30,159 nucleotides of DNA. Source: a virus. The notes under the pieces are model-generated. The model was not told the DNA's origin. It ran no database searches and was given only the letters and a program-made list of their open reading frames with translations. The DNA lies in IMG/VR virus record IMGVR_UViG_3300003702_000017, positions 8,244 to 38,402 of that record. One strand, given 5' to 3'. The position numbers were made by a program, and so were the translations under genes. The number at the start of each line of letters is the position of its first letter. Positions within the stretch are counted from its first letter, which is position 1. Shown here one piece after another: positions 1,276 to 23,393 of the stretch.

Positions 1276-1632
1276 ATGAAAGTTTTTGATTTATTAAATG
1301 AAGCATTAGATGATGAGTTTGGTCAATATATAGTTCGTGACGTGACTCGTCCAGACCATGAATGGTCTGCTGATACTAAAAAAGATGTTATTGATGCTAT
1401 TATGGCAAATGCTATTACAAAATGGCAGGTTATAGAAGCAGGCTCAGATGAAATACTTGCAGATTATCATCATGATTCTATTTTAAATGGTAAAATTACG
1501 CCTAAAGATAAAACATTTAATCGTATACAAGAGTTAATGTTTAATGCTGAAGATGATACACCTGATCATGCACCGTTTCCTAAAGTTAAAGTTGATATGG
1601 AAGTGGTTGATCCGGATCTTGACTTGGAATAA
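1276..1632 (+). CDS. Small late protein with capsid-targeting-like N-terminus
   Basis: A 118-residue acidic protein beginning MKVFDLLNEALDD. The MK..x.L..EA pattern resembles the capsid-targeting sequence of T4 internal head proteins (MKTYQEFIAEA type), which the prohead protease cleaves after (L/I)xE; here the candidate cut would be after LNE at residue 9. The body holds no recognisable domain. HAPFPK near residue 99 repeats HAPFYK of the gene ending at 599, and 13 identical bases underlie the two motifs. A perfect late promoter sits 5 nt before the start codon. The 3' end overlaps the convergent minus-strand gene by 47 bases. A packaged internal head protein is an inference. Confidence 0.65.
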   Translation: MKVFDLLNEALDDEFGQYIVRDVTRPDHEWSADTKKDVIDAIMANAITKWQVIEAGSDEILADYHHDSILNGKITPKDKTFNRIQELMFNAEDDTPDHAPFPKVKVDMEVVDPDLDLE

Positions 1633-2548
1633 TACCATATTCCATATACAATAATGCGTGTCGCATAGGCACTGGTCTAATAATATTTCCATCTTCATCA
1701 AGTGATCTAGCTGTATGTATTGCTTTACTATATGTTAAGTTGCATTTTTCTATTATTGTATCATAATGTTTTTCATATTTACGCCACCAAAAGTCAGTAC
1801 CAAAGTGTTGCATAAATTCTAAACCTATCCATACTTCAGCTATACTAATAAATTTAAAATCATTCATAAGTTTTATAGGTCCATTTTCTCGTTTTCTTGA
1901 ATAACGTAATCCTATACGATGTACATTCATACCAAATGCTTTACTTAATGAAAAAGTTATTGTTTTAATAGCAGGATGATCTACATTAAAGTTAATATTT
2001 CTACAGCAAGGATACCATGCCGCATCAATATGTACAGGTATGTCTAATAGTAAACATCGTTCTAAAATTTCTGGCAGTTCAGGATGGATGTCATTATCGT
2101 AGAATGTAAATGGTGTTGCTATAATTAATACATCTCCAATGTGCAGTGTTTCTACAGTTCGTGTAAAGATATCAGGAAATAATCTATTATGATAAGGATA
2201 GTCTCCATCAAACACAACTATTTTTTTGTTATGCATCATATGAAGTTCATCAAGTTGATTTGTTACGCCAGCACAAATGTCTTTGTCTGGAAATGCCTCT
2301 AATCCAATAAATGAAATTAGTTTATGATTACAAATCCAATTATGCATTTTTTCTTTAAATTGTTCTGTTATTATATTATAATCTTCAGTATCTCTTATTG
2401 TAATAGTTTTATAATTATCAAATCGCATTGTATTATGTAAAGAATTGTGAAATTTATGTACCTCTTTATCAAACATTGGTCGTTTGCGAGATCCTGGTTT
2501 TCTATCTATTAAACTGTTTAATATTTTTATATCTGGTGTAAATGTCAT
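1586..2548 (-). CDS. Fold-type-I PLP-dependent aminotransferase-like enzyme
   Basis: The 320-residue protein follows the class I/II aminotransferase plan. A GVTNQLDEL helix (about residues 94-102) is followed by a strand ending in a D-Y-P-Y turn (about 114-119). A nucleotide-like strand precedes HIDAAWY (residues 173-179), where D175 is the expected pyridine-N partner and Y179 the expected O3' partner. SLSKAFG (residues 200-206) supplies the PLP lysine K203, and R211 follows in the usual SLSK..G..R..G context. The substrate cannot be read from sequence; the length is a little short for the family. It is the last gene of a minus-strand run behind two radical SAM genes, 12 nt after the previous stop. 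Base composition matches the surrounding AT-rich phage DNA, so no recent transfer is evident. No Shine-Dalgarno is visible. Confidence 0.75.
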   Translation of the reverse strand: MTFTPDIKILNSLIDRKPGSRKRPMFDKEVHKFHNSLHNTMRFDNYKTITIRDTEDYNIITEQFKEKMHNWICNHKLISFIGLEAFPDKDICAGVTNQLDELHMMHNKKIVVFDGDYPYHNRLFPDIFTRTVETLHIGDVLIIATPFTFYDNDIHPELPEILERCLLLDIPVHIDAAWYPCCRNINFNVDHPAIKTITFSLSKAFGMNVHRIGLRYSRKRENGPIKLMNDFKFISIAEVWIGLEFMQHFGTDFWWRKYEKHYDTIIEKCNLTYSKAIHTARSLDEDGNIIRPVPMRHALLYMEYGIIPSQDPDQPLPYQL

Positions 2549-2560
2549 TTGTTTTTCTGT

Positions 2561-3988
2561 TTAGGTTGCACGAATTTCTTTTAATTGTTGTTTTAAATAT
2601 GTAACTGTTTTAGCATTAAACGCATAATTAAGATTTTGTAAATGATTATGTAATCGTATATATCTATCAATACGTATTTCCATATTGTTATTTTCAGTAT
2701 GCCAGTGTCCATTATTATCCCATTCAATGTTCCATAAATGACGATCATCATTTAATGGTGCTCCTTCGACAAGATCGCATGGCGGACCGAGAATAACTTT
2801 AACTAGTCCCTTGTCACTTAATGGTTTTATTTCTGTAAAAAAATTATAAGTTTCAAGAAAGTCATCTTCTGTTTCTGTAGGATATCCAATCATCATTAGC
2901 ATTGATATTTTAATATCGTTTTTGTCGCATTGTTCTAATGTATAATATAAATCTTTATTAGTAAAATATTTTTTCATATCTCGTCTTACTTTGTATGATA
3001 CACTTTCAACACCTATTGCTAAATCTAAAAATCCTGCTTTAGCAATATCTTTATATATCTCAGGTGGTAGTTGAGTCTCAGGCCTGCAAATATATTGTGT
3101 ATGACAATGAAAAGGTTTTATATTGTTTGTTTCATAATATGTTATTAGTTCTTTTAATAGGTCATTAAATTGTTTTACATTACCGTTTATTAAGCTATCT
3201 GTAAAGTAAAAATTTCGAATATCATATAATTCGTATTGTGTTGACATTTCGTTAGCAATAGATTTTGGACTTCTATATCTAAATTTAGGCCATTGATAAC
3301 CTATATCGCAAAATGTACATCGTCTAACACATCCACGAGAACCAGTAATATAAAGTATATCAGCACCAAGATCATCTCGTATAGAGGGATCTTTATAATT
3401 TTTTGAATAAATTGAAAAATCGTAATCAGAATAATCAGGAATAGGAACAGAATCTAAATCATTTATTTGAGGTGCCCAGCCATTGATACCAGGATGCTCA
3501 TCTCCTTTTAATAAAGCAAGCATTGCTTCTTCTCCTTCGCCTTTAATAAAAACATCGCATTTTTCTTGTTTTAAAAATCTGTCACCACAATAGTTTGTAT
3601 ATGGGCCTCCTAAAACAATTTTAATTTTTGTATTATGATTTTTAAGTTCGGTACATATTTTTTCACATATGTATAACGAACGTTGTGAAAATAATGACAT
3701 GCCAAACCATGTAGGATTTTCTTTTATAATATATTGTACCCATTCTTTAACATGTGGTTCCATTAATGGATATGATTTATTAAATTGTTCTCGTTGCCTA
3801 AATGTTGTATTAGTGTCAATCCACCATCCAGAATTTTCTGGTCCTACTTTTTCCCATAAATCAATATTCCAATCTACTAAATGACAAGAAAAATTATTTT
3901 GTTGTAACACAGATTTTAAAATCGCAGGGCCAGTAATGGGAGACCGAGTATGTAATCTAGGTAATGTTGCTATAATGCAATCAATCAT
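2561..3988 (-). CDS. Radical SAM protein with cobalamin-binding-like N-terminal domain
   Basis: Residues 1-165 look like the Rossmann-type domain that precedes many radical SAM cores: a DCIIATLPR strand, a VDWNIDLW turn, a KIVLGGPY strand and a GEGEEA segment. The B12-ligating D.H..G motif is not present, so cobalamin binding is doubtful. The radical SAM core follows, with C220, C224 and C227 in GSRGCVRRCTFCDIG for the 4Fe-4S cluster. Further family marks are AIGVES and MMIGYPTE, the latter typical of B12-domain radical SAM and MiaB-like proteins. The reaction is unknown. The start overlaps the end of the upstream twitch radical SAM gene by 8 nt, indicating one operon and coupled translation. 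Confidence 0.85.
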   Translation of the reverse strand: MIDCIIATLPRLHTRSPITGPAILKSVLQQNNFSCHLVDWNIDLWEKVGPENSGWWIDTNTTFRQREQFNKSYPLMEPHVKEWVQYIIKENPTWFGMSLFSQRSLYICEKICTELKNHNTKIKIVLGGPYTNYCGDRFLKQEKCDVFIKGEGEEAMLALLKGDEHPGINGWAPQINDLDSVPIPDYSDYDFSIYSKNYKDPSIRDDLGADILYITGSRGCVRRCTFCDIGYQWPKFRYRSPKSIANEMSTQYELYDIRNFYFTDSLINGNVKQFNDLLKELITYYETNNIKPFHCHTQYICRPETQLPPEIYKDIAKAGFLDLAIGVESVSYKVRRDMKKYFTNKDLYYTLEQCDKNDIKISMLMMIGYPTETEDDFLETYNFFTEIKPLSDKGLVKVILGPPCDLVEGAPLNDDRHLWNIEWDNNGHWHTENNNMEIRIDRYIRLHNHLQNLNYAFNAKTVTYLKQQLKEIRAT

Positions 3989-5216
3989 TGTTTTCTTCTG
4001 TGTATGTATTAATTATATCTGCGATATATTTATGTTCGTCTTGTATATTAAATTTGCGAACAGTATTCATCCAATTGGTAAATTCTATAAATGATTCATA
4101 ACGATTATACGAATCATCATCTTTGTTTATTACTAGAAATGCACTATCTATATTAAAAATTATATTTTTTATGCTTTGTAATTCGATTGAAGGAATAATA
4201 AATGCACTTTTTTGAATTTCTTCTATTATTGTTTTAAATATTGTGTTTTGATGTTGGTTCAATAATAAGTTAGCACACAGGTATGGTTGTATTGCAGGAT
4301 AGATGCTTATATTATTTTGACTAAAAATATTGTTTTGATATTTTGAAAAGTAATTAATAGTATCTATTATATTTCCAACATTGTATATGCTTAAAACAAA
4401 GTTAATTCCAAGTACAGAAATACTTGGATGGTTTAATAATAGTTGAAAGTTTTTGTCTATGTTACTAAAGTTTGTTCCTCGGATCCATTCATATGTTTTA
4501 CCTATGCCATCAATGCTGGCAAAAATTTCTATATCTTTTAGTTTGCTAAATGTTTCAAGAGTTTTTTTGGTTATTGTTGTAATGTTGCTAACCATTCTTA
4601 TTTTTAGAGTTGGTTTAACATTACTAATTTTATCTAGAAATGTTAAGCAGTTTTTATCGTATAATGGTTCTCCACCTTTAATAATTAATAGTTCTAAGTC
4701 GTTTATATTGTCTAAAATTGATTCAAGTACTTCTTTTTGTAGAACAACTGGCTTGAATTGATTATAGTCATAGTGTGTTTTTAATGCATTGAGTGCTTTT
4801 TGCGGCATAGATTTTTCTTGTTGATGCCAATGTGAACTATGAATGCTGTTACACATAACACATCCTAAATTACATTGATTGCTAAAACTAATATCAAGAT
4901 ATTTAATTTTTGGTGTAAGATCTTCTGGTAATCGCTTTCGAGACATTGCATATTTAATTCGTTTACTTTCAAGATTGTGTTGTTCTCTACTATAACAATA
5001 TTTGCAAGCATTAATATATTCATCGTTAAGCATCTTTTCTCTAATCTCTTTTATACGCTCACCATAGAATATGTTTTCTATTGTAGTAGTCGATTCTGTA
5101 AAGTCGTGTAGACTGTGGTCTGCCTCATCAGACCAAACAGGGCATAATTGAGCATGACCTCGTGGGTCAATTGTAATACCATCAAAGGGTATATAACAGA
5201 AATGTTTCTTATTCAT
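3981..5216 (-). CDS. Twitch-type radical SAM protein
   Basis: I place the start at the ATG at 5216 (MNKKHFCYIPFDG), because the longer frame to 5282 adds a low-complexity segment that would run through the promoter region. From this start the protein has 411 residues. The N-terminal auxiliary cluster domain has C7, C25, C71 and C74 (CKYC), arranged as in twitch/SPASM-like proteins but placed ahead of the core. The radical SAM cluster residues are C115, C119 and C122 (QCNLGCVMC), followed by a KGGEPLYD strand that contacts SAM. Such proteins modify peptides, sugars or small molecules; the substrate is not deducible. It is the first gene of the three-gene cassette and diverges from gp32 across about 130 bases. 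Confidence 0.85.
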   Translation of the reverse strand: MNKKHFCYIPFDGITIDPRGHAQLCPVWSDEADHSLHDFTESTTTIENIFYGERIKEIREKMLNDEYINACKYCYSREQHNLESKRIKYAMSRKRLPEDLTPKIKYLDISFSNQCNLGCVMCNSIHSSHWHQQEKSMPQKALNALKTHYDYNQFKPVVLQKEVLESILDNINDLELLIIKGGEPLYDKNCLTFLDKISNVKPTLKIRMVSNITTITKKTLETFSKLKDIEIFASIDGIGKTYEWIRGTNFSNIDKNFQLLLNHPSISVLGINFVLSIYNVGNIIDTINYFSKYQNNIFSQNNISIYPAIQPYLCANLLLNQHQNTIFKTIIEEIQKSAFIIPSIELQSIKNIIFNIDSAFLVINKDDDSYNRYESFIEFTNWMNTVRKFNIQDEHKYIADIINTYTEENND

Positions 5217-5267
5217 ATATTGATATGTGATAAATACATATATAATATATTTATTGTAATTTTTTAC

Positions 5268-5296
5268 TTGACAATTGTACACATAGGCATTATAAT
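5268..5296 (+). promoter_or_regulatory. Sigma70-like promoter of gp32
   Basis: TTGACA (5268-5273), a 17-nt spacer and TATAAT (5291-5296). The expected start near 5303 gives a leader of about 46 nt ending in an AAAGGAG ribosome binding site. On the other strand TTGTCA overlaps the same -35 region and could serve the divergent radical SAM genes, but that reading is weaker. Confidence 0.8.
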
Positions 5297-7697: not shown

Positions 7698-8182
7698 TGG
7701 CGTCTTGGTATCAACAAGTTGTTAACAATATTGCTGTATTGCCTGATTGTATAGATTCTTTTGAAGAGCAGTTCGAAGAAGCACGATCAGAAGTTAAATT
7801 TAGTGGTAGTATAGAAAAAGCATCCAGTGCTATTCCTGCAATTGTGCAATTACGATTTTCACAATTACAAGAAATTGAAGCAATCTTAGAACATCTAAAT
7901 ATTCATTTACGAAAATTAAGAGCACAAGTTTTTAAAAAGTATTTAGAAAATTATAATAGACAATTAAGTTCTAGAGATGCTCAAGCATATGTTGATGGTG
8001 AACAAATAATTGTAAATCAAACAGAATTAATTAATGAGTTTGGATTATTAAGAAATCAGTTTTTAGGAATATTAAAAGCATTGGAAGCAAAGCAATTTCA
8101 GATTAATAATATTGTAAAATTGCGAGTTGCTGGTCTTGAAGATTCCGAAATTAATATGTTTTATGGTAATCCGAATAAGTAA
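7697..8182 (+). CDS. uvsY: Probable UvsY-like recombination mediator
   Basis: T4 UvsY loads UvsX onto gp32-coated ssDNA. This 161-residue, mostly helical protein has the UvsY-type layout: an N-terminal helix, a basic segment around residues 75-95 (LRKLRAQVFKKYLENYNRQL), a spacer, and a C-terminal helix in which an LLRNQFLGILKALE stretch leads to QINNIVKLRVAGLED. T4 UvsY is 137 aa. The position two genes after uvsX, with start overlapping the preceding stop (TAATG), supports the call. UvsY proteins diverge strongly, so position and architecture carry more weight than single residues. Confidence 0.6.
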   Translation: MASWYQQVVNNIAVLPDCIDSFEEQFEEARSEVKFSGSIEKASSAIPAIVQLRFSQLQEIEAILEHLNIHLRKLRAQVFKKYLENYNRQLSSRDAQAYVDGEQIIVNQTELINEFGLLRNQFLGILKALEAKQFQINNIVKLRVAGLEDSEINMFYGNPNK

Positions 8183-8202
8183 TAGAAATATGTAATTTAG
8201 TG

Positions 8203-8232
8203 TTGACAACTAGGTTACTTATAATGTATAAT
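8203..8232 (+). promoter_or_regulatory. Sigma70-like promoter
   Basis: TTGACA (8203-8208), an 18-nt spacer and TATAAT (8227-8232), with a second TATAAT just upstream at 8220. It serves the coiled-coil gene at 8266, whose ATG follows AAAGGAG. Confidence 0.75.
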
Positions 8233-8265
8233 GTATTACATGAACTATTGTAAAGGAGAATTGTA

Positions 8266-8688
8266 ATGGACATCAATTTACGTAAAGCTGCTACTTTGCA
8301 GGAACAAGTTAGACAAGCTATAAGTGATATTAGTTTAGATACCAAGAATGATGGAACCGGTCGAGTTGTTGAAGATAACTTGGTTGAACGGTTAATTCGG
8401 GTAGAAGAATTAGAATCTGTGTTGTATAGTCTACGTGACAAAGTTGGCAAAGCAAATGTTGAAACAGGTGTTAGTACATTATTAACAAAACGGGTACAAC
8501 TTAATAATTTAATTAGTCGATATGAAAAATTAGTTCGCAACGGACATGAAAGTTTTAAAGTAAAGTTGTCAGATTTCCGTCGTGAGCGTGTTAAGATTAG
8601 CGAAAGTATTCTTGAATTAAATGTTGGATCTAGTGTTAATGTAGCTGATGCTGATGTTGAAATTTTAAATAATGAAAACATCATATGA
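8266..8688 (+). CDS. Helical/coiled-coil protein, weakly DIP1984-like
   Basis: A 140-residue protein made mainly of long helices. A LQEQVRQ segment near the start, an ELESVLYSLRDKVGKAN segment in the middle and LLTKRVQLNNLISRYEKL afterwards give the order helix, N-x-x-T turn, helix seen in DIP1984/septicolysin-like small proteins. The match is by pattern only. It has its own strong promoter and a good Shine-Dalgarno, and its codons are slightly more G+C-rich than average here, so it is probably well expressed in the early or middle period. No enzymatic motif is seen. Confidence 0.7.
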   Translation: MDINLRKAATLQEQVRQAISDISLDTKNDGTGRVVEDNLVERLIRVEELESVLYSLRDKVGKANVETGVSTLLTKRVQLNNLISRYEKLVRNGHESFKVKLSDFRRERVKISESILELNVGSSVNVADADVEILNNENII

Positions 8689-8689
8689 C

Positions 8690-8697
8690 AATAAATA
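8690..8697 (+). promoter_or_regulatory. Late promoter AATAAATA upstream of a candidate ncRNA
   Basis: One mismatch from TATAAATA. Its predicted +1 (8703) is the first paired base of an 11-bp RNA stem, and no ORF longer than three codons follows before the terminator at 8810. Confidence 0.6.
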
Positions 8698-8702
8698 TAT
8701 AT

Positions 8703-8840
8703 AGTTAAGCATTGTATATGTACATAAGATAATAAGAATAACATAATACTTGCTGATTGTATTAGATTAAAAGTTATATTGGTAAAGAGGAAATGCTTAA
8801 CTAATTGATGAAAGGGTGCCGATCGGCACCCTTTCTTTTT
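8703..8840 (+). ncRNA. Candidate late-expressed structured non-coding RNA
   Basis: A transcript of about 138 nt would start at 8703 and end at the T-tract at 8836-8840. Its first 11 bases (AGTTAAGCATT, 8703-8713) pair with 8792-8802 (AATGCTTAACT). Inside, TAATAC (8744-8749) pairs with GTATTA (8759-8764) around a 9-nt loop, extended by ATAAC (8738-8742) with GTTAT (8773-8777) across an asymmetric bulge. An AGAGG lies just before an ATG at 8793 that opens a three-codon frame (Met-Leu-Asn-stop) within the closing stem. No real ORF fits. The terminator hairpin completes the unit. A leader or 3' UTR remnant is the alternative. Confidence 0.5.
8810..8840 (+). terminator. Intrinsic terminator
   Basis: An 11-bp perfect stem (GAAAGGGTGCC, 8810-8820, with 8825-8835), GATC loop and five T's. 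Confidence 0.9.
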
Positions 8841-8844
8841 AACG

Positions 8845-8875
8845 TTGACAAATCTCCAATTTTTGTTATTATAAT
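8845..8875 (+). promoter_or_regulatory. Sigma70-like promoter with the ATCTCCAA element
   Basis: TTGACA (8845-8850), then ATCTCCAA directly downstream, and TATAAT (8870-8875) after a long 19-nt spacer. AATCTCC (8851-8857) and GGAGATT (8881-8887) form an inverted repeat around the -10. The predicted start near 8882 makes the GGAG at 8881-8884 nearly the first bases of the message. The same element occurs at 10005 and 10363. Confidence 0.7.
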
Positions 8876-8890
8876 TGTATGGAGATTATA

Positions 8891-9100
8891 ATGAAAAATA
8901 ATAAATCAGATGAAATAGTATCAGAATGTGTTAAAGCAATTAGTGGTATAGCAGATAGGAATAATATAAATATTGTTGATGAGGATTTTATCAAAGACAT
9001 AGCATTGTCGGCAAAATTTTTAAATGCCGCATTTACTCGTCAATTAGGTCAATCAAATATATTACATGAGCATATGTCAAAGATAATGAATTCTATATGA
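8891..9100 (+). CDS. Small hypothetical protein
   Basis: I use the ATG at 8891 (MKNNKSDEIV), because transcription should begin near 8882, after the in-frame ATG at 8879; GGAG then sits 6 nt upstream. The 69-residue product is helical and charged with no recognised domain. Its TGA is directly followed by the ATG of the dioxygenase-like gene, so the two are probably co-transcribed from the promoter at 8845. Confidence 0.6.
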   Translation: MKNNKSDEIVSECVKAISGIADRNNINIVDEDFIKDIALSAKFLNAAFTRQLGQSNILHEHMSKIMNSI

Positions 9101-9922
9101 ATGATTAACAGCGAGATTCTCCAGCAGTATGTTGACGACGGTGCAACCGTAGTTCGAGGTTGTCTCAGTGAAGAATGGTTAGACCTATTGCGGATGGCTG
9201 TTGAACGTGATATTGAGAACCCTGGTCCAATGGTTCTCGATTATATTGAGGGGAATCAATCTGTACCAGGTGCCGGCCGCTTTCACGGTAATCTTCGTAT
9301 TTGGGAAACCGACGACACCTTTCGGGATTTTTGTTTGAATTCTCCACTGCCAGAGCTAGCGGCCGAATTTCTCAGTTCGAAAAAAATTAATCTTTTTTAT
9401 GATCAGTTGTTTGTCAAGGAGCCGGGTATGCTCAATAGAACACGTTGGCATAATGACCATCCCTACTGGCCTATACGAGGCTGGCAGGTTTTGAGCTTCT
9501 GGGTTGCACTGGATCCTGTAAATGCAAGAAATGGTGTTCTTGAATTTATACGTGGTTCACATCGCTGGGGCCGATGGTTTCGACCAGATCTGACATATGA
9601 CCATGAACGTAATCCTAATTATGAGATTATTCCAGATATTGAGGCAAACCGCGATCAGTACGAGATTATGAGCTGGGAGTTGTCGCCAGGCGATGTTTAT
9701 GTGTTTCATGCGTTGACGGTGCATGGTGCTGGTGGAAATGAGAGCAGTGATGTTCGTCGCCGAGGTTATACAGTGCGCTATACAGGTGATGATGTGGTTT
9801 ATGATACTCGTCTTGGAACTAATAAGAGATTATGCTCTGATATACATAAAGATGGCGACCCGCTTGATAGTGAACGTTATCCAGTGGTCTGGCCCCTTGT
9901 ATTTAAGGATTTGCTAATATAA
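9101..9922 (+). CDS. Phytanoyl-CoA dioxygenase (PhyH)-like Fe(II)/2-oxoglutarate oxygenase
   Basis: The 273-residue protein has the double-stranded beta-helix signature of PhyH enzymes: iron ligands H117 and D119 (RWHNDH) and distal H208 (VHGAGGN), with the 2-oxoglutarate-binding basic residue expected in RRGYTVRY (about 219-227). SFWVALDPVNARNGVLEFI is the usual core strand pair between them. These enzymes hydroxylate small molecules using O2 and 2-oxoglutarate; the substrate here cannot be read. Base composition and codon choice are clearly richer in G+C than neighbouring genes, and a 16-bp tandem duplication spans the stop codon, both consistent with fairly recent acquisition. No Shine-Dalgarno is seen; the start directly follows the upstream stop, so coupling is likely. 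An auxiliary metabolic gene is the best description. Confidence 0.88.
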   Translation: MINSEILQQYVDDGATVVRGCLSEEWLDLLRMAVERDIENPGPMVLDYIEGNQSVPGAGRFHGNLRIWETDDTFRDFCLNSPLPELAAEFLSSKKINLFYDQLFVKEPGMLNRTRWHNDHPYWPIRGWQVLSFWVALDPVNARNGVLEFIRGSHRWGRWFRPDLTYDHERNPNYEIIPDIEANRDQYEIMSWELSPGDVYVFHALTVHGAGGNESSDVRRRGYTVRYTGDDVVYDTRLGTNKRLCSDIHKDGDPLDSERYPVVWPLVFKDLLI

Positions 9923-9936
9923 GGATTTGCTAATAT
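9905..9936 (+). repeat. 16-bp perfect tandem duplication at the end of the PhyH-like gene
   Basis: Bases 9905-9920 (AAGGATTTGCTAATAT) are repeated at once at 9921-9936. The first copy encodes the last residues; the stop codon falls at the junction. Confidence 0.95.
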
Positions 9937-9997
9937 ATACCCTTAAAATCCACACTAAAATAGTGGTATTATTGTTGTAAAAAACCCACACTTTTTC

Positions 9998-10020
9998 GTT
10001 AAGATTGACAGATCTCCAAC
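9998..10020 (+). repeat. 23-bp promoter repeat, copy 1
   Basis: Identical over 23 bp to 10356-10378. It contains the -35 hexamer TTGACA and the following ATCTCCAAC. Confidence 0.95.
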
Positions 10021-10032
10021 TTATGCTATAAT
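10005..10032 (+). promoter_or_regulatory. Sigma70-like promoter with the ATCTCCAA element
   Basis: TTGACA (10005-10010), 16-nt spacer, TATAAT (10027-10032); predicted start near 10039. It drives the two tiny membrane proteins at 10059 and 10217. The stretch between the PhyH stop and this promoter has two similar AT-rich segments around CCACAC but nothing else I can name. Confidence 0.8.
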
Positions 10033-10058
10033 ATATGTATAATAAAAGAGTGAGAGAA

Positions 10059-10220
10059 ATGAAAGAAATCAAAAAAGTAGAAAATCGTAAAATTGGCATA
10101 TTGCCAAAAGTAGCGGCAACAGCGGCTGTAGCGTATGGTGCTTATAAATTAGGATACCACTTAACAGCCAAAAAAGGTACGCGACGTGAATGGCATCGTA
10201 AATCAGGTGAAACTGTATGA
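10059..10220 (+). CDS. Small membrane protein with YGAYKL/KKGTRR module
   Basis: The start is set at the ATG at 10059 (MKEIKK): the in-frame ATG at 10035 lies upstream of the expected transcription start, and GTGAGAG sits just before 10059. The 53-residue product has one hydrophobic helix (about residues 13-31, ILPKVAATAAVAYGAYKL) followed by a basic tail HLTAKKGTRREWHRK. The same module closes the late structural protein at 21130 (YGAYKLAHHLTSKKGTRRDWH), with 18 identical bases at DNA level. A role in membrane anchoring is plausible but unproven. The stop overlaps the next start (ATGA). Confidence 0.7.
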   Translation: MKEIKKVENRKIGILPKVAATAAVAYGAYKLGYHLTAKKGTRREWHRKSGETV

Positions 10221-10360
10221 TTGAACTTTTATTATTTTTAATCTTGTTGGTTTTGGTAGTTAAGTGTCTACCAGGATTAGCGAGTTTTTTGGTTAGCACT
10301 GTTATAGTACTTTGTGCTCTTATTGGTGCAATCGTTTTATATTTCGCAATTGCTAGTTAA
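10217..10360 (+). CDS. Tiny two-helix membrane protein
   Basis: A 47-residue ORF whose ATG overlaps the preceding TGA. Nearly the whole product is hydrophobic: one helix at residues 2-15 (IELLLFLILLVLVV), a KCLPG turn, and a second helix at about 22-46 ending in LYFAIAS. It could be a phage membrane effector or a minimal holin-like protein; no family is recognised. Its stop codon lies inside the second copy of the 23-bp promoter repeat. The ATGA overlap and clean hydrophobic profile argue that it is real despite its size. Confidence 0.6.
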   Translation: MIELLLFLILLVLVVKCLPGLASFLVSTVIVLCALIGAIVLYFAIAS

Positions 10361-10378
10361 GATTGACAGATCTCCAAC
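10356..10378 (+). repeat. 23-bp promoter repeat, copy 2
   Basis: Perfect copy of 9998-10020, placed ahead of the AAA ATPase gene and overlapping the stop codon of the 47-residue ORF. Confidence 0.95.
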
Positions 10379-10390
10379 CTGTAGTATAAT
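10363..10390 (+). promoter_or_regulatory. Sigma70-like promoter with the ATCTCCAA element
   Basis: TTGACA (10363-10368), 16-nt spacer, TATAAT (10385-10390). The leader to the ATG at 10434 carries an ACGAGG ribosome binding site. Confidence 0.8.
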
Positions 10391-10433
10391 GTATATAATG
10401 TTAATTTTAGATTAATAACCCACGAGGTAATCT

Positions 10434-11480
10434 ATGTCCGCTCAGAAGTTAGTAAAGATTAATGGGTCCTATCGGAATACGCCTGTTCCAGGTGTTGTAT
10501 TTCCGTTAGTCAAGGCCCTAACAAAAGGTAAGAAAGGTGACTTTGTTACCGTAGATGGAACAACAGTTTCTGGATACCCAGATCGTCATCTTCGTATTAA
10601 GGTGGCAAGTAAGTCAGATTATGAATTTGTCAAATCTGACACTCCTGTGGGATTACCAGAGAATGCTCCCAAGACAGTAGAAACCGATGAAGAAGCAATT
10701 GCGCGAATACGCGATCGGTTTTCAATTCTTGACGAAATGACCGAAGCTACTATTGAGGGCACGGTGCGAGGCATGATTGTCTCAGGCCCTCCAGGCGTTG
10801 GTAAGTCGTATGGTGTAGAAACTGTATTAGAGCGATCTAATACTTTTAATAAACTTGCCGGTAAGAAATGCAAGTATGAGATTGTTAGAGGTGCTATGAC
10901 AGCATTGGGCCTGTATGCTTTACTTTTTAAGTGGAGCGACCCCGGCAAAGTATTAGTGCTCGATGATTGTGATACAGTTCTTTGGGACGAACTTTCGCTG
11001 AACCTTCTTAAAGGTGCACTGGACTCCAGTAAACATCGGCGGCTTTTTTGGAATGCTGATAGTCATAAATTGCGTGGCGAGGGTATTCCAGATCAATATG
11101 AATTTAATGGCTCGATCATCTTTATATCGAACTTGAAATTTGATCAGATAACGAAGAGTGGTCGGATTGGTAAAATTAAGGATCACTTGGAAGCAATTAT
11201 TTCCAGATGTCACTATTTGGATCTGACACTGGATACAATGCGCGACAAGATGCTCCGTATACATCAGATTGTTGGCGATGGTATGTTGAATGAATATAAG
11301 TTCAACAGTGACGAGACAAAGATGATTGTTGATTACATTGACGAGCATAAAGAAAAGTTGCGTGAAGTGAGTTTGCGTATGGTGCTAAAGATTTCAGACT
11401 TGTACAAGATGGCACCCAAGAACGATCACTGGAAGAGACTTGCCGAGACAACTTGTATGCATCGAGAGGTATTAGTATAG
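10434..11480 (+). CDS. AAA-family ATPase
   Basis: The 348-residue protein has an N-terminal region of about 85 residues without a recognised motif, then a single AAA module: Walker A GPPGVGKS (118-125), Walker B VLVLDDCD (173-180), a sensor-1-like FISN (230-233) and a small helical lid toward the end. It does not read as the T4 clamp-loader gp44 or helicase Dda; the long WDELSLNLLKGALDSSK stretch after Walker B suggests a remodelling or loader ATPase. It has its own promoter and a strong terminator, so it is a one-gene unit. Codons are more G+C-rich than in uvsW and uvsX, suggesting high early expression or a different origin. The client is unknown. Confidence 0.85.
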   Translation: MSAQKLVKINGSYRNTPVPGVVFPLVKALTKGKKGDFVTVDGTTVSGYPDRHLRIKVASKSDYEFVKSDTPVGLPENAPKTVETDEEAIARIRDRFSILDEMTEATIEGTVRGMIVSGPPGVGKSYGVETVLERSNTFNKLAGKKCKYEIVRGAMTALGLYALLFKWSDPGKVLVLDDCDTVLWDELSLNLLKGALDSSKHRRLFWNADSHKLRGEGIPDQYEFNGSIIFISNLKFDQITKSGRIGKIKDHLEAIISRCHYLDLTLDTMRDKMLRIHQIVGDGMLNEYKFNSDETKMIVDYIDEHKEKLREVSLRMVLKISDLYKMAPKNDHWKRLAETTCMHREVLV

Positions 11481-11505
11481 TTTACACTATCTGAGCGGAT
11501 GGTGG

Positions 11506-11529
11506 CCGGGGGGCAACCCCCGGTTTTTT
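11506..11529 (+). terminator. Intrinsic terminator after the AAA ATPase
   Basis: A 7-bp stem (CCGGGGG with CCCCCGG), GCAA tetraloop and six T's. The loop and G/C core match the hairpin after gp32. Confidence 0.92.
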
Positions 11530-11532
11530 ATA

Positions 11533-11561
11533 TTGACTTTTTTTCCTTCTTAACGTATAAT
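11533..11561 (+). promoter_or_regulatory. Sigma70-like promoter of uvsW, leaderless context
   Basis: TTGACT (11533-11538), 17-nt spacer and TATAAT (11556-11561). Six bases follow before the ATG at 11568, so the standard +1 is the A of the start codon. Confidence 0.8.
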
Positions 11562-11567
11562 AGTATT

Positions 11568-13022
11568 ATGGCAACAGCGAAATTAATTATTCGCGATGAG
11601 GTTAATATTAAATTGGATAACATAGATCCAAGTACTCGTCGTAAAATGTCTGCCGCTCTTAAGTTTATGCTTCCGTATGCTTATCATATGCCTGCGTATA
11701 AGTTAGGACGCTGGGACGGCATGATTAGATTTTGTGATATCGGTGGTAGAACTTATTTAAATTTATTGGATACATTGCTACCAATAATCCAAAGTGCTGG
11801 TTATGATATTGATATTGAAGATCATAGAGAAACATGGAATCTCAAATTTGATGAAATAGATGAAAATTATTTAAGTGATATTAAATGGCCAAAAGGTCAT
11901 ATTGCGGCCGGTACGAATATAGTTTTACGAGATTATCAAGTAGAAGTTGTAAATAATTCTATTAATCATTTACAAAGTTTGCAAGAAGTTGCTACTGGTG
12001 CAGGTAAAACAATTATAACTGCTACGTTGAGTAAATTGTGTGAGGTGTATGGTAGGACAATAGTTATAGTGCCAAATAAAAGTTTAGTAACTCAAACAGA
12101 GGAAGATTATATTAATGTAGGACTTGATGTAGGTGTGTTTTATGGTGACAGAAAAGAGTATGGGCGCCAACATACCATATGTACTTGGCAGTCATTAAAT
12201 GTATTGCTTAAAAAAAGTAAAAAGAAAATAGCTGATATAGATATAGAGCAATTTATTGATGGTGTTATTTGTGTAATGGTAGACGAAGTACATCAAGCAA
12301 AAGCAGATGTATTAAAAGAATTACTTACAGGTGTGTTTGCTAATATACCTATACGTTGGGGTCTTACTGGTACAATTCCTAAAGAGGAATATGAGTTTAT
12401 AAGTTTAAAAGCAAGTCTTGGTGAAGTTATTAATAGAGTAAGTGCTCATTCATTACAAGAACAAGGAATATTAAGTAATTGCGAAGTTAAAGTTTTACAA
12501 TTAAAAGATGATGTTGAATATCCAAATTATCCAAGTGAATTAAAATATTTGGTTACTGATAAAAATCGAGTAGATTATCTTGCTAAAGTAATAGAAGATA
12601 TTTCTAATACTGGTAATACTCTCGTTTTAATACATCGTATTAAAACAGGTGATATGTTAATTGAAAGATTATCAAATGCAGTATTTGTTAGAGGCTCAAC
12701 TAAAAATGAACAACGGAAAGAACATTATGATGAAGTAGCAATAAGAAACGACAGTCTTATTGTAGCAACGTATGGTGTTGCATCAGTTGGTATTAATATT
12801 CCTCGTATATTTAATCTTGTATTAGTAGAACCAGGTAAAAGTTTTGTAAGAGTAATACAAAGTATAGGACGAGGTATTAGGAAAGCTCCGGATAAAGATT
12901 TTGTTCAAATATGGGATATTACTAGTAATTGTAAATATAGTAAACGGCATTTGGCAACAAGAAAAAAATATTATCGCGATGCTCAATATCCGTTTACTAT
13001 TGAAAAAATTTCTTATAAATAA
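11568..13022 (+). CDS. uvsW: UvsW-like ATP-dependent helicase
   Basis: UvsW is the T4 superfamily 2 helicase that unwinds R-loops and branched recombination intermediates. I start it at the ATG at 11568 (MATAKLII), because the longer frame from 11499 would run through the terminator and promoter. From there 484 residues include an N-terminal UvsW domain (PAYKLGRWDG near 42-51), a Q-motif-like LRDYQ, Walker A ATGAGKT (142-148), DEVH (239-242), LTGT (266-269) and motif VI QSIGRGIRK. Length is close to T4 UvsW (about 500 aa). It has its own promoter, and no Shine-Dalgarno precedes the ATG. Confidence 0.94.
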   Translation: MATAKLIIRDEVNIKLDNIDPSTRRKMSAALKFMLPYAYHMPAYKLGRWDGMIRFCDIGGRTYLNLLDTLLPIIQSAGYDIDIEDHRETWNLKFDEIDENYLSDIKWPKGHIAAGTNIVLRDYQVEVVNNSINHLQSLQEVATGAGKTIITATLSKLCEVYGRTIVIVPNKSLVTQTEEDYINVGLDVGVFYGDRKEYGRQHTICTWQSLNVLLKKSKKKIADIDIEQFIDGVICVMVDEVHQAKADVLKELLTGVFANIPIRWGLTGTIPKEEYEFISLKASLGEVINRVSAHSLQEQGILSNCEVKVLQLKDDVEYPNYPSELKYLVTDKNRVDYLAKVIEDISNTGNTLVLIHRIKTGDMLIERLSNAVFVRGSTKNEQRKEHYDEVAIRNDSLIVATYGVASVGINIPRIFNLVLVEPGKSFVRVIQSIGRGIRKAPDKDFVQIWDITSNCKYSKRHLATRKKYYRDAQYPFTIEKISYK

Positions 13023-13023
13023 G

Positions 13024-13052
13024 TTGTGTTTTGTTATGTAATATTATATAAT
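13024..13052 (+). promoter_or_regulatory. Possible sigma70-like promoter
   Basis: TTGTGT (13024-13029), 17-nt spacer, TATAAT (13047-13052). The -35 matches four of six bases. GAAGG before the ATG at 13075 supports a separately translated message. Confidence 0.45.
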
Positions 13053-13074
13053 ATAATAAATTAGAAGGTATTTA

Positions 13075-13578
13075 ATGCACATATTAACAATAGAAAATGA
13101 ATCATATAGTTTAAATAATTTACCAGATGTAATAGGTGATGTTAGGTATTGTGTTTTAGATACAACAGATCCTACTTTTATTGATTATTACTTTTTACCA
13201 TTAATATTTTTAGAGAGTTTTAGTACGCCAGCTGTGGTATTACAGATTGGCCCATATCAAATTCAAATGCCATTAGATTGGAGTGTGTTGATAGGTGAAC
13301 CCAGTCAGGGTGATATGGAAGTTATACCTCTTGCTAATCTTAATGATAGAGGGTTTATCACTTTATTGTATAATCCATTAAAAGGTTATATGCCAACTTG
13401 GGAGCCAATACAAATAATAAATGTATTTGTTGAAGTTAAATGGTTTTTTCCAAAATTAAAATTTGGTCATTTATTAGCAATGCCTATACAGCAAAAAACG
13501 AATCCCCTTTGTGGATTTTTTGTTAAAGAAACAAATAAAATACCTGATGTAATTGACATTGGTGATATTATTATATGA
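13075..13578 (+). CDS. Conserved marine-phage-type hypothetical protein
   Basis: A 167-residue beta-rich protein. Its core runs AVVLQIGPYQIQMPLDWSVLIGEP, then LNDRGF, then a W-F-P-K-L-K segment and NPLCGFFVKE near the C-terminus. The general look is familiar from T4-like marine phages, but I cannot attach a function. Soluble; no signal peptide or membrane segment. It heads a run of overlapping genes (ATGA with the next), continuing to the zinc-finger and DnaE-like genes, so it may be co-expressed with them. Confidence 0.75.
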   Translation: MHILTIENESYSLNNLPDVIGDVRYCVLDTTDPTFIDYYFLPLIFLESFSTPAVVLQIGPYQIQMPLDWSVLIGEPSQGDMEVIPLANLNDRGFITLLYNPLKGYMPTWEPIQIINVFVEVKWFFPKLKFGHLLAMPIQQKTNPLCGFFVKETNKIPDVIDIGDIII

Positions 13579-13850
13579 ACGAATTTATTGTAACGTGGGA
13601 AGTAAGGTATTATGATTATGAACCAGAAAAGGTATATTTTGCAGAAGAATATATTGAATCTAAAGATTTAGATTCTTTAAAGGAATATTTAGGTGAAAAT
13701 GCTATGGAGCATACACCAGAAATGAATGTTCCATTTGCAACTGGTGACTTTAATATTGAATGGATTAAGATTCAGGATGCAAACACTGAAAAAGAATTAT
13801 GGCGTGACCCATATACAGAGTTTAAAGAAAAGATTGACAATGAAAGTTGA
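13575..13850 (+). CDS. Small hypothetical protein
   Basis: 91 residues; beta-strand then helix pattern (FIVTWEVRYYDYEPEKVYFAEEYIESKDLDSLKEYL), acidic throughout. The start overlaps the previous stop (ATGA) and its end overlaps the next gene by 11 nt. No family recognised. Confidence 0.7.
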   Translation: MNEFIVTWEVRYYDYEPEKVYFAEEYIESKDLDSLKEYLGENAMEHTPEMNVPFATGDFNIEWIKIQDANTEKELWRDPYTEFKEKIDNES

Positions 13851-14331
13851 TATGTTTAAAGAAATTCTTCCTGCAATAGGCAAGAAGGATAGAAGTTTTT
13901 ATAATGAGTTGCCCGAAACAACGGCTAGTACTAAATTAGGTTTTTGGATGATACACAGATGGGCAACATGTTCTATAAAAAATAAAGAGCATTATATTTT
14001 TCTTGTTAATGAATTGTGTAATCGACATTATAGTGAATTAAGTAAGTATCCAGAATTGCAATGGTTGTTATTAAGTGTTATTGGATTAGGAAAAGAGAAG
14101 TATTTTAAGCAATGGGTCGGTGTGCCCAATAGTTTGTCAGAAACAAATTCTATTGATGACTTTTTATTAAAAGTTTATCCAGCTATAAACGATGACGAAT
14201 TAAATTTATTAAAGGAAATGAATACAGAAGATGACTTTGAAACTCTTGCAAAAGAAATGGGACACAACGACCAACAAATTTCTGATATCTTTGGTGGAAA
14301 ACATAGAAGTAAAAAAGACAACAGGGTTTAA
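13840..14331 (+). CDS. Conserved hypothetical protein upstream of zinc-finger gene
   Basis: I start at the ATG at 13840 (MKVDMFKEILPAIG); the longer frame from 13726 overlaps the previous gene heavily. The 163-residue protein is helical with a conserved-looking core: FYNELP, a W-M-I-H-R-W helix, HYIFLVNELCN, then KYPELQWLLLSVIGLGK. It occupies the kind of place where T4-like phages keep small replication proteins, but it does not resemble gp62 clamp-loader sequences as I know them, so no symbol is given. The 3' end overlaps the zinc-finger gene in another frame. Confidence 0.7.
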   Translation: MKVDMFKEILPAIGKKDRSFYNELPETTASTKLGFWMIHRWATCSIKNKEHYIFLVNELCNRHYSELSKYPELQWLLLSVIGLGKEKYFKQWVGVPNSLSETNSIDDFLLKVYPAINDDELNLLKEMNTEDDFETLAKEMGHNDQQISDIFGGKHRSKKDNRV

Positions 14332-15001
14332 GTGTAAATTTTGTGAAAGAGAGTTTAAGAGTGTTAAGACACTAGCTGCACATACCTGTGAACAAAAGCG
14401 TCGGCATATAGCACAAAATGAAAAACAAGTGCAACTTGGTTTTCGTGCATTCCAACGATTTTATGAATTAAATTCAACTGCAATTAAACCTAAACCTAAA
14501 ACGTTTGGTGAATTTAGATTATCTAATTATTATCTTGCGTTCGTTAAATTTGGTAAATTTGCTAAAGAAGTAAATTGTTTACGATATGAAAGTTTTGTTG
14601 ATTGGCTTATTAAAAATAATTTACGATTAGATGAGTGGGCAAAAGATGGTGCTTATGAATTATTTGTTAGAGATTATGTAAATTATGAATTAGCAGATGA
14701 AGCAATAGCACGAAGTATAAAATTTATGCAAAGATGGGCAGAAAAAGAAAAAGAACAATGGCATTTATTTTTTAATAAAGTAAATTCTAATATTTTTGTT
14801 TATTGGATTAGAACTGGAAGGTTATCTCCTTGGATAGTTTTTAATTGTCAATCTGGGCAAATAGCATTGACTAATTTAAGTGATGAACAAATGGGTTTAA
14901 TTGCTGATGCTTTAGATCCTACTTTTTGGAATAAACGTTTTTTAAATTCACAGGATGATGTTAATTTTGTTAAACGTATTTTAGTTGAGGCTGGTTTATG
15001 A
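14294..15001 (+). CDS. C2HC zinc-finger protein
   Basis: The frame is open from an ATG at 14231, but that start lies deep in the preceding gene; GTG at 14294 is a shorter alternative just ahead of the conserved region, so the start is uncertain. With GTG at 14294 the zinc site is C14, C17, H30, C32 (CKFCEREF, then HTC). Behind it come a basic helix (EQKRRHIA), a GFRAFQRFYEL helix and a long helical body with YYLAFVKFGKF and a C-terminal region around RTGRLSPWIVFNCQSG. A nucleic-acid-binding role is expected from the finger. The stop overlaps the start of the DnaE-like gene (ATGA), making a coupled pair. Confidence 0.75.
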   Translation: MENIEVKKTTGFKCKFCEREFKSVKTLAAHTCEQKRRHIAQNEKQVQLGFRAFQRFYELNSTAIKPKPKTFGEFRLSNYYLAFVKFGKFAKEVNCLRYESFVDWLIKNNLRLDEWAKDGAYELFVRDYVNYELADEAIARSIKFMQRWAEKEKEQWHLFFNKVNSNIFVYWIRTGRLSPWIVFNCQSGQIALTNLSDEQMGLIADALDPTFWNKRFLNSQDDVNFVKRILVEAGL

Positions 15002-15561
15002 AATTACCTGATATTGATATTGATTTAAAAAATCGAGAAGACGTATTAAGTATATTAGAACATATACCAGCAAGTCTTGATGGATCTAAAAAGCACAATA
15101 CGGGTGTATATTTTACTAATGTTCCAGTTAATCCATTAACTAATGTTTCGAGTATAAATTATAAAGAAGCCGAAGGACGGGGTTATTTTAAACTTGATCT
15201 TTTAAATGTTAGTGTGTATGAGAATATAAAAAATGAGGAACATTTAAATGAATTAATATCTCAAGAACCTGTTTGGGAACTGCTAGAACATAAAGAAATA
15301 GTAGAACAATTATTTCATATACATAACCATTATAATATTGTAAAACAATTAAAACCAAAAAGTATAGAACAATTAGCGGCTGTATTAGCAGTTATTCGTC
15401 CAGCAAAAAGATATCTGTTAAAAGAAGGATGGGATAAAATTAACGAAGAAGTTTGGATTAAACCAGAAGATAATAGTTATTATTTTAAAAAATCTCATTC
15501 TATTGCATATGCGATAGCAATAGTAGTTCAATTAAATTTATTAGTAGATGATATTGATTAA
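14998..15561 (+). CDS. Miniature DnaE-like (C-family) DNA polymerase core
   Basis: The 187-residue protein follows bacterial Pol III alpha (DnaE) landmarks in order but in miniature. LPDIDIDL (residues 3-10) matches PDFDVDF of E. coli, placing D5 and D7 at catalytic D401 and D403. KKHNTGVYFT (31-40) matches the KHAGGVVI strand. YFKLDLLN (63-70) matches VKFDFLGL, placing D67 at D555. PKSIEQLAAVLAVIRPAKR (120-138) matches the fingers segment ending ALFRPGP. YFKKSHSIAYA (162-172) matches FNKSHSAAYA. All three catalytic aspartates are kept, yet PHP, clamp-binding and tau-binding regions are absent: DnaE is about 1160 aa. T4-like phages replicate with a B-family polymerase, so this is not the replicase. 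It is coupled to the zinc-finger gene by ATGA. Catalytic activity is inference. Confidence 0.7.
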   Translation: MKLPDIDIDLKNREDVLSILEHIPASLDGSKKHNTGVYFTNVPVNPLTNVSSINYKEAEGRGYFKLDLLNVSVYENIKNEEHLNELISQEPVWELLEHKEIVEQLFHIHNHYNIVKQLKPKSIEQLAAVLAVIRPAKRYLLKEGWDKINEEVWIKPEDNSYYFKKSHSIAYAIAIVVQLNLLVDDID

Positions 15562-23044: not shown

Positions 23045-23052
23045 TATAAATA
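23045..23052 (+). promoter_or_regulatory. Late promoter TATAAATA, leaderless context
   Basis: Exact consensus with five bases to the ATG at 23058. No Shine-Dalgarno. Confidence 0.75.
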
Positions 23053-23057
23053 TAAGT

Positions 23058-23393
23058 ATGAATCTGGGTGACTTGTATGAAGATGATCCAATGCTCGAAG
23101 CACGGCGTGTATGGGCACGTCGCGGTAATAAAGTAGTACAAAAATTTCGTTGTACATCTGGATGGCGTAAAGGAAGATTGGTAGCAACTCCTGCAAGTTG
23201 TTCAAAACCATTGGATATTAAGAAAAGATATACAATTAAAAAGACAAGAGCACGATTAGGTAAAAGAATTACTCGAAGAACACAAAGAATGAAACGGTTT
23301 AATCCAATTACTAAACGTATTACAACAATGAATAAATCAACCCGGCCTAAAATAAAGAGTGGTGGTTCTACCAAGTGGTGGATAAAACGATGA
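23058..23393 (+). CDS. Small very basic protein, probable nucleic-acid binder
   Basis: 111 residues; after an acidic first 12 residues the chain is dominated by Arg and Lys. A conserved-looking core reads RRVWARRGNKVVQKFRCTSG, WRKGRLVATPASC (two cysteines, C32 and C48, that might bind metal or pair), then KKTRARLGKRITRRTQRMKR. This fits a DNA-binding protein packaged with, or used on, the phage genome. Late promoter with leaderless spacing; the stop overlaps the next start (ATGA). Confidence 0.7.
   Translation: MNLGDLYEDDPMLEARRVWARRGNKVVQKFRCTSGWRKGRLVATPASCSKPLDIKKRYTIKKTRARLGKRITRRTQRMKRFNPITKRITTMNKSTRPKIKSGGSTKWWIKR

Follow-up and report, generated by a model that had tools for sequence, protein, structure and literature searches.

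Phage T4 produces two small RNAs without an assigned role, RNAC and RNAD, from its tRNA region, and the accessible part of a 2010 review states that no small trans-acting regulatory RNA of T4 had been functionally characterised by then (PMC3014915). The T4-like cyanophage S-PM2 expresses CfrI, a non-coding RNA of about 225 nt without an assigned role that runs antisense to both psbA and a homing endonuclease gene, and the phage's late promoter consensus is NATAAATA, according to the accessible text of PMC2984593. RNAs of the Rfam types abiF, wcaG, manA and glnA are carried by T4-like cyanophages, as the available section of PMC9964418 describes, and a further study sought structured RNAs in Pelagibacter and, in its available section, not in phages (PMC2704228).

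The window analysed here is a 30,159-nucleotide stretch of viral DNA (positions 8,244 to 38,402 of IMG/VR record IMGVR_UViG_3300003702_000017), and a structured RNA gene of about 135 nt was located at its positions 8703-8839. Like RNAC and RNAD, it is a small RNA without an assigned role; unlike them, it lies in a window that contains no tRNA, behind a late octamer and between recombination-linked genes. It resembles CfrI in being a non-coding RNA of a T4-like phage, but CfrI is expressed and antisense, whereas this RNA is predicted from sequence, is structured and lies between a 140-aa and a 73-aa ORF on their strand. With abiF, wcaG, manA and glnA it shares the character of a structured RNA in a T4-related phage, but unlike them it has no Rfam match at gathering score: no family of Rfam 15 reached the gathering cut-off anywhere in the window (0 matches), and a permissive search of 8640-8900 returned 24 sub-threshold matches, the best of them mostly on or including the terminator hairpin. 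The octamer, its spacing and a gp55 homologue in the lineage agree with T4-type late promoters (TATAAATA; NATAAATA in S-PM2), but here the octamer stands before a non-coding RNA in place of a protein gene. Judged by their descriptions in the accessible texts, none of these known RNAs matches by position or family, and no paper describing this RNA was recognised in searches of open-licence literature. We class it as a new family within the known kind 'phage small RNA', with early and late units nested.

An earlier sequence-only reading had compared the RNA with those of T4-like phages. The phage is indeed related to T4, though not closely to its classical form: the nearest isolates by UvsX/UvsY are mainly jumbo phages, and those listed (Phosso, Atu_ph07, 121Q, PBECO4, CBB and others) show 64% identity at most. 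In the related contig L024, UvsX (2167-3192) is 95% identical to that of the window, and the nearby gp32 and 140-aa ORF are 75% and 69% identical; this contrast can be read as a sign of recombination. Elsewhere in the window, a 187-aa ORF (14998-15558) matches the short DNA polymerase family phrog_11778 (E 3e-70), and several ORFs may together make up the polymerase. Genes for two radical SAM proteins, of which one has a B12-binding domain, and for a PhyH-type dioxygenase lie at 1586-5282 (minus strand) and 9101-9922, and a 320-aa ORF without Pfam match adjoins the radical SAM proteins; the radical SAM and PhyH-type genes are possible metabolic cargo beside the replication genes.

Anatomy of the element and conservation of its fold

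The features of the locus, all on the + strand, are as follows.

8203..8232, +, sigma-70 promoter TTGACA-N18-TATAAT, 12 of 12 match, upstream of the 140-aa ORF
8244..8265, +, leader of the 140-aa ORF, with AUUGUA flanking the Shine-Dalgarno (8247-8252, 8260-8265); possible operator
8266..8688, +, 140-aa ORF; no PHROG match, no Pfam match at E 0.001
8690..8697, +, late-type octamer AATAAATA, fitting the NATAAATA late consensus
8702..8713, +, 5' arm of the closing stem, pairs with 8792-8803
8703..8839, +, small RNA, from the predicted +1 at 8703 through the terminator
8711..8715, +, AUUGU element 1, at the closing stem's inner end
8748..8756, +, loop motif ACUUGCUGA (ACUUGCUAA in many copies), candidate seed
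8756..8760, +, AUUGU element 2, directly 3' of the loop motif
8792..8803, +, 3' arm of the closing stem, pairs with 8702-8713; two-sided changes in relatives
8810..8840, +, intrinsic terminator, 11-bp stem (8810-8835) and T5
8845..8872, +, sigma-70-type promoter of the downstream 73-aa ORF (8879-9100), after the terminator

The sequence-only reading had proposed a late octamer, an 11-base perfect pairing, an internal two-part hairpin and a strong terminator. Direct reading of the sequence found the octamer AATAAATA at 8690-8697 as claimed; 8703-8713 (AGTTAAGCATT) and 8792-8802 (AATGCTTAACT) are perfect reverse complements of each other, and the terminator has 11 pairs at 8810-8835 with a T5 tail. 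The T-A pair 8702/8803 adds to the 11-bp core, and the closing stem counts 12-13 bp. The interior between the two arms is A+U-rich with CUUGCU, and the motif at 8748-8756 sits in a weak hairpin (8745-8749 / 8759-8763). The two-part hairpin exists in the minimum-energy fold of one sequence, but only a 5-bp AAUAC/GUAUU-type hairpin is partly kept, with a two-sided change in 1 of 5 pairs and 84% pairing over 14 distinct copies, which weakly supports it.

The claim that no ORF exceeds three codons was nearly right: the window has a 10-11-codon frame that starts at UUG/AUG in the linker and runs into the terminator. A 26-codon frame occurs in L005, L006, L010 and L011 and is missing from the other 9 copies listed, and no conserved reading frame was found in the RNA among these 13 copies. 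On the minus strand, a 197-aa frame (8151-8744) lies antisense to the 140-aa ORF with its start inside the RNA, and similar overlapping frames occur in L004 and L027; it is probably a shadow frame.

A lack of compensatory changes in the closing stem among relatives was one of two findings that the earlier reading had named as refuting its RNA, and the RNA passes this test. Two-sided changes were observed in 9 of its 13 consensus pairs across the 14 distinct copies, with 92% of cells paired, and in 8 of 12 pairs on an alignment built from sequence alone; the 14-copy alignment had been fitted to the structure. The terminator showed two-sided changes in 7 of 11 pairs with 100% of cells paired. 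RNAalifold, given the sequence-only alignment of 13 distinct copies, recovered both closing stem and terminator with 14 of 23 pairs two-sided. The whole structure was paired at 93.8% on the fitted alignment, falling to 38-50% when slid by 1-3 columns, and at 93.6% against 42-55% on the sequence-only one. None of 500 shuffles reached the covariation score on either alignment. Four of five covariation measures lay beyond all 500 shuffles on both, and the fifth, further pair types, was reached by 403 of 500 shuffles on the sequence-only and 23 of 500 on the fitted alignment; related sequences may beat shuffles even without structure.

The deviations from Watson-Crick pairing are informative about the strand. 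Among 182 cells of the closing stem, 19 G-U, no A-C, 14 other mismatches and 2 gaps were counted, and the terminator has 18 G-U and no A-C wobbles. Since G-U outnumbers A-C by 19 to 0, selection acts on the + strand RNA. The fold of 8703-8840 has -40.7 kcal/mol (z -5.5, matched by 0 of 200 shuffles), and without the terminator (8703-8806) -19.7 (z -2.6, 2 of 200). Single-sequence folds of 8 relatives reach a z of only -0.7 to -2.8 and their interiors differ, so the evidence is comparative, not energetic. The sequences compared show a + strand fold kept by compensatory changes, along with the promoter-to-stem geometry, the terminator and the surrounding unit, and the RNA seems to be kept for its shape more than for its sequence.

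The same changes bear on the idea that the transcript primes replication through an R-loop, like that of T4 oriF/ori(uvsY) but driven by a late promoter. The locus lies beside uvsX-uvsY and is A+T rich, and the minimal sequences of T4 oriF and oriG include a promoter and an A+T-rich unwinding element; loss of late transcription also alters replication from oriC, as unpublished data cited in the accessible part of the same review indicate (PMC3016281). The same text states that R-loops at T4 origins require no specific sequence, whereas at this locus compensatory changes, with G-U wobbles, preserve a fold of the RNA. A strong terminator moreover ends the transcript, and the cumulative GC skew of a 107-kb relative keeps rising through the locus without a turn. 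Such a priming role is very improbable.

Surrounding unit and late promoter

The 140-aa ORF has an AlphaFold model with a mean pLDDT of 90, which resembles PDB 3kdq (Foldseek probability 0.97, TM 0.60, but E 0.25), a Corynebacterium diphtheriae protein without assigned function which we take to be the one named DIP1984. Between uvsY and this ORF, a perfect TTGACA-N17/18-TATAAT was found in all 14 loci examined out of 29, two of them of the divergent L017 type described below, and 8203..8232 is the predicted early promoter for the unit of ORF and RNA. No + strand terminator-like site was listed in the window between this promoter and the RNA. Behind the terminator, the promoter of the 73-aa ORF recurs in all but one (L017) of the 12 loci examined, with agreement at 11-12 of 12 positions and a spacer of 16 or 19. 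For the 73-aa ORF itself, neither PHROG nor, at E 0.001, Pfam gave a match. Because the late promoter is nested behind the sigma-70 promoter, the RNA can form as the tail of the early ORF transcript and later alone, and it is probably made also as the 3' end of the early transcript. What appears to be new here is the unit as a whole, consisting of sigma-70 promoter, 140-aa DIP1984-like ORF, nested late promoter, RNA and terminator.

The order of structured RNA, terminator and gene would suit a riboswitch or attenuator for the 73-aa ORF. The separate promoter at 8845..8872, placed after the terminator like its counterparts in 11 of 12 loci, argues against it; the 73-aa ORF was not found in the L017 group, where an RNA-like unit persists, and no alternative antiterminator pairing was seen by eye. 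A riboswitch is the least credible of the readings, and both it and origin priming fit the locus worse.

The early promoter in 14 of 14 loci, the lack of a listed + strand terminator-like site before the RNA and the fresh promoter behind the terminator agree with an element that is a 3' UTR only, which would stabilise or end the early ORF mRNA and read-through from uvsX-uvsY and shield the next gene, the octamer being incidental. Two contigs, L024 and L025, do keep the RNA with no recognisable octamer. A stabiliser, however, needs no invariant loop motif, and the behaviour of the octamer also stands against this reading. TATAAATA is present in 10 of 15 loci and AATAAATA in 3, so that NATAAATA occurs at the same place in 13 of 15, yet it is rare (138 occurrences in 646,404 strand-bases of six contigs). 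What stays nearly constant is its spacing from the stem, since it ends 3 or 5 bases ahead of the second column of the consensus stem; its distance to the ORF stop codon is variable, with overlap of the stop in some copies. We regard a 3' UTR function alone as unlikely.

T4 late transcription starts at the sixth base after the octamer. As the octamer ends 3 or 5 bases before column 2, the predicted +1 is a stem base in all 13 octamer loci, and the start is predicted to within a base or two. In 13 of 15 loci, all but L024 and L025, the octamer thus has the spacing from the predicted 5' end that is expected of a T4-type late unit. Within the window alone the octamer is uninformative, because 152 copies with at most one mismatch were found against a shuffle mean of 152; it is the conservation in relatives that convinces. 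A gp55-type late sigma gene was detected on the L016 contig (E 1e-25), the only one of 16 records searched to give it, most of them short. Neither the window's own 38-kb record nor G010, G011 and G012 (117-203 kb), from more distant UvsX relatives, yielded one. Covariation, the kept octamer-to-stem spacing, the gp55-type gene of a relative and the lack of a conserved ORF together support the earlier proposal of a structured non-coding RNA with a late promoter.

Elsewhere in these genomes, exactly 5 bases separate the octamer from the next ATG in 10 of 37 occurrences of TATAAATA, compared with a mean of 1.7% and a highest value of 7.9% for 55 permuted octamers, which lends the spacing independent support; the ten cases are not independent, since they fall into about four gene families. 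The arrangement occurs at 1263-1278 and 23045-23060 of the window and on the contigs G001, G002, G003, G005 and G006, and these sites are predicted to give leaderless late mRNAs.

Distribution among relatives

Relatives were found with the upstream ORF (8266-8685) as query against viral contigs. It is encoded in 28 of them, and a profile search gave an equal number. The full element was present in 20 and cut by the contig end in one (L015); the other 7 (L017, L018, L019, L021, L022, L029 and L030) have a divergent unit in its place. Several of the contigs are near-identical, so independent copies are fewer than contigs, and 14 distinct RNAs were obtained from 15 loci. All show the order gp32-like gene, uvsX, small ORF, uvsY and 140-aa ORF over the length that each contig covers. 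Among the loci searched, the RNA was seen only beside the 140-aa ORF, a co-occurrence that is partly by design because the ORF served as the query.

A covariance model was built on 11 copies, leaving out L020 and L023-L028, which represent two lineages. The left-out copies were recovered at 48-52 bits (E 2e-7 to 3e-8), and over the 28 contigs the model gave 48-137 bits in the 20 with the full element and 51 bits in the cut L015. Five divergent contigs (L017, L018, L019, L021 and L022) scored 31.2 bits and L029 29.6 bits, which does not establish membership because opposite-strand matches to the terminator alone score up to 34.6 bits; L030 had no match. The group is classed as divergent by its position, octamer, 9-bp CUAAACACU/AGUGUUUAG stem and terminator, as seen in the sequence. 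When ten whole records were searched, seven had one strong match each, and none was found in G004, G005 and G009, which are of the divergent type.

Wider scans added no member. An exact-motif scan of the viral collection gave 17 stretches, of which 5 lie on the known contigs L012, L013, L112, L117 and L122; the other 12 had by eye neither closing stem nor terminator and reached at most 21.5 bits. At least 120 stretches came from a gapped-pattern scan. Among the 80 listed, 78 were new loci with one true member, L209, which is the contig already counted as L006; L207 reached 29.1 bits only. In 78 UvsX-relatives without the 140-aa ORF, 6 model matches of at most 31.9 bits were rejected because opposite-strand terminators reach 34.6 bits and L069 and L073 share just the terminator. 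Exact TATAAATA with a perfect stem and terminator occurred only in L016 and L020 in 2.1 Mb of both-strand loci. For the 140-aa ORF, no relative was found in 50,697 phage records or, in one scan, in the genome collection. In Phosso, the best isolate match by UvsX, 38 bases separate the UvsY homologue and the next annotated gene, which leaves no room for the RNA at that place, and the model finds none in the 6-kb stretch around it.

Interior motif and possible role

The interior of the RNA is variable except for CTTGCT, which is invariant in 13 of 13 rows of the sequence-only alignment A2 and in 11 of 11 of A3. Two further elements keep their places: of the 12 family members listed, 11 (all but L020) have (A/G)UUGU at RNA position 11, and all 12 have AUUGU at position 50-64.

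The RNA keeps paired ends and, within a loose interior, a fixed motif, and it has its own predicted promoter and terminator; this is the anatomy of a stable trans-acting small RNA. The reading we favour, at a probability of about 0.5, is a dedicated gene for a trans-acting late small RNA. Early in infection, the sigma-70 promoter at 8203-8232 would give a 140-aa ORF mRNA ending in the element; later, a gp55-type late sigma would start at 8703 and yield a free RNA of about 135 nt. Its first base belongs to the closing stem, and a few bases separate the 3' arm from the terminator; with both ends thus paired, a stable RNA is expected. Its A+U-rich interior would display the ACUUGCURA motif, most likely as a seed for base-pairing with phage or host mRNA. 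Transcription, timing, stability and the base-pairing mode we infer from sequence features.

Targets of the motif were sought in the start regions of ORFs in five contigs, sorted into 42 ortholog groups, with permuted motifs as control. For the best start-region target of the 42 groups, 8 of 60 permuted motifs did as well or better, and for the second best 1 of 60. Among 8 neighbouring genes, none reached the 5% level in 300 permutations, the best being 7.7%. These planned tests gave no significant target. A set chosen post hoc, 24 of 292 genes with LxE[AGSN]-type N-termini, was equalled by 0 of 100 permuted motifs, but we keep it as a lead only: several of its strongest pairings fall at the 3' end of the gene before, in AAACATTTAGCAGGT and variants which encode a recurring ...KHLAG(I/V) tail, the motif sites occur on both strands, and G005 of the L017 type has the tails but a different RNA. 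Neighbouring proteins with this common tail are encoded at 596-1267 and 1276-1632 of the window, 28339-31646 of G001 and 9225-14621 of G006. Several of them begin with MKxxDLLxEA or similar, ending in LxE[AN], and are reminiscent of capsid-targeting sequences cut by a T4-type prohead protease.

The kept UUGU elements suggest another use of the RNA, in which an RNA-binding protein of phage or host recognises (A/G)UUGU(A) and the late RNA could serve as decoy or feedback for the regulator of the ORF, perhaps the product of the ORF. AUUGUA flanks the Shine-Dalgarno of the ORF on both sides, and the 22-nt leader is better conserved than the first 120 nt of the gene (mean pairwise identity 0.87 against 0.74 in 12 loci); of 7 genes this holds only for the 140-aa ORF, not for gp32, uvsX, uvsY, the 73-aa ORF, the AAA gene or uvsW. 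Leader and RNA share the 10-nt TATTGTAAAG in L009; in L007, L012, L020 and L024 they share 8-9 nt of this stretch or of a variant, but in the window, L005 and L016 no common stretch of 8 or more exists (8 loci compared). The element is short and A+T rich and was noticed post hoc, the joint presence of ORF and RNA follows partly from the search design, and RNA binding by the ORF product is conjectural. This protein-binding reading, the main and the bolder rival of the favoured one, is tentative. Quite unlikely is its extension to one control circuit of protein and RNA, in which a regulator, perhaps the 140-aa protein, binds AUUGUA around the Shine-Dalgarno and the late RNA, with the same elements on a fixed scaffold, titrates it, giving early-to-late control of the ORF. 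If this is true, a T4-type phage would possess a late timing switch based on RNA.

The accessible part of the 2010 review expresses the hope that T4 relatives will suggest candidates for small trans-acting regulatory RNAs (PMC3014915). The RNA described here is such a candidate, with comparative evidence for its structure, a predicted start and a motif that is defined for mutation. It further suggests that RNA genes, in addition to protein genes, may be under T4-type late promoters.
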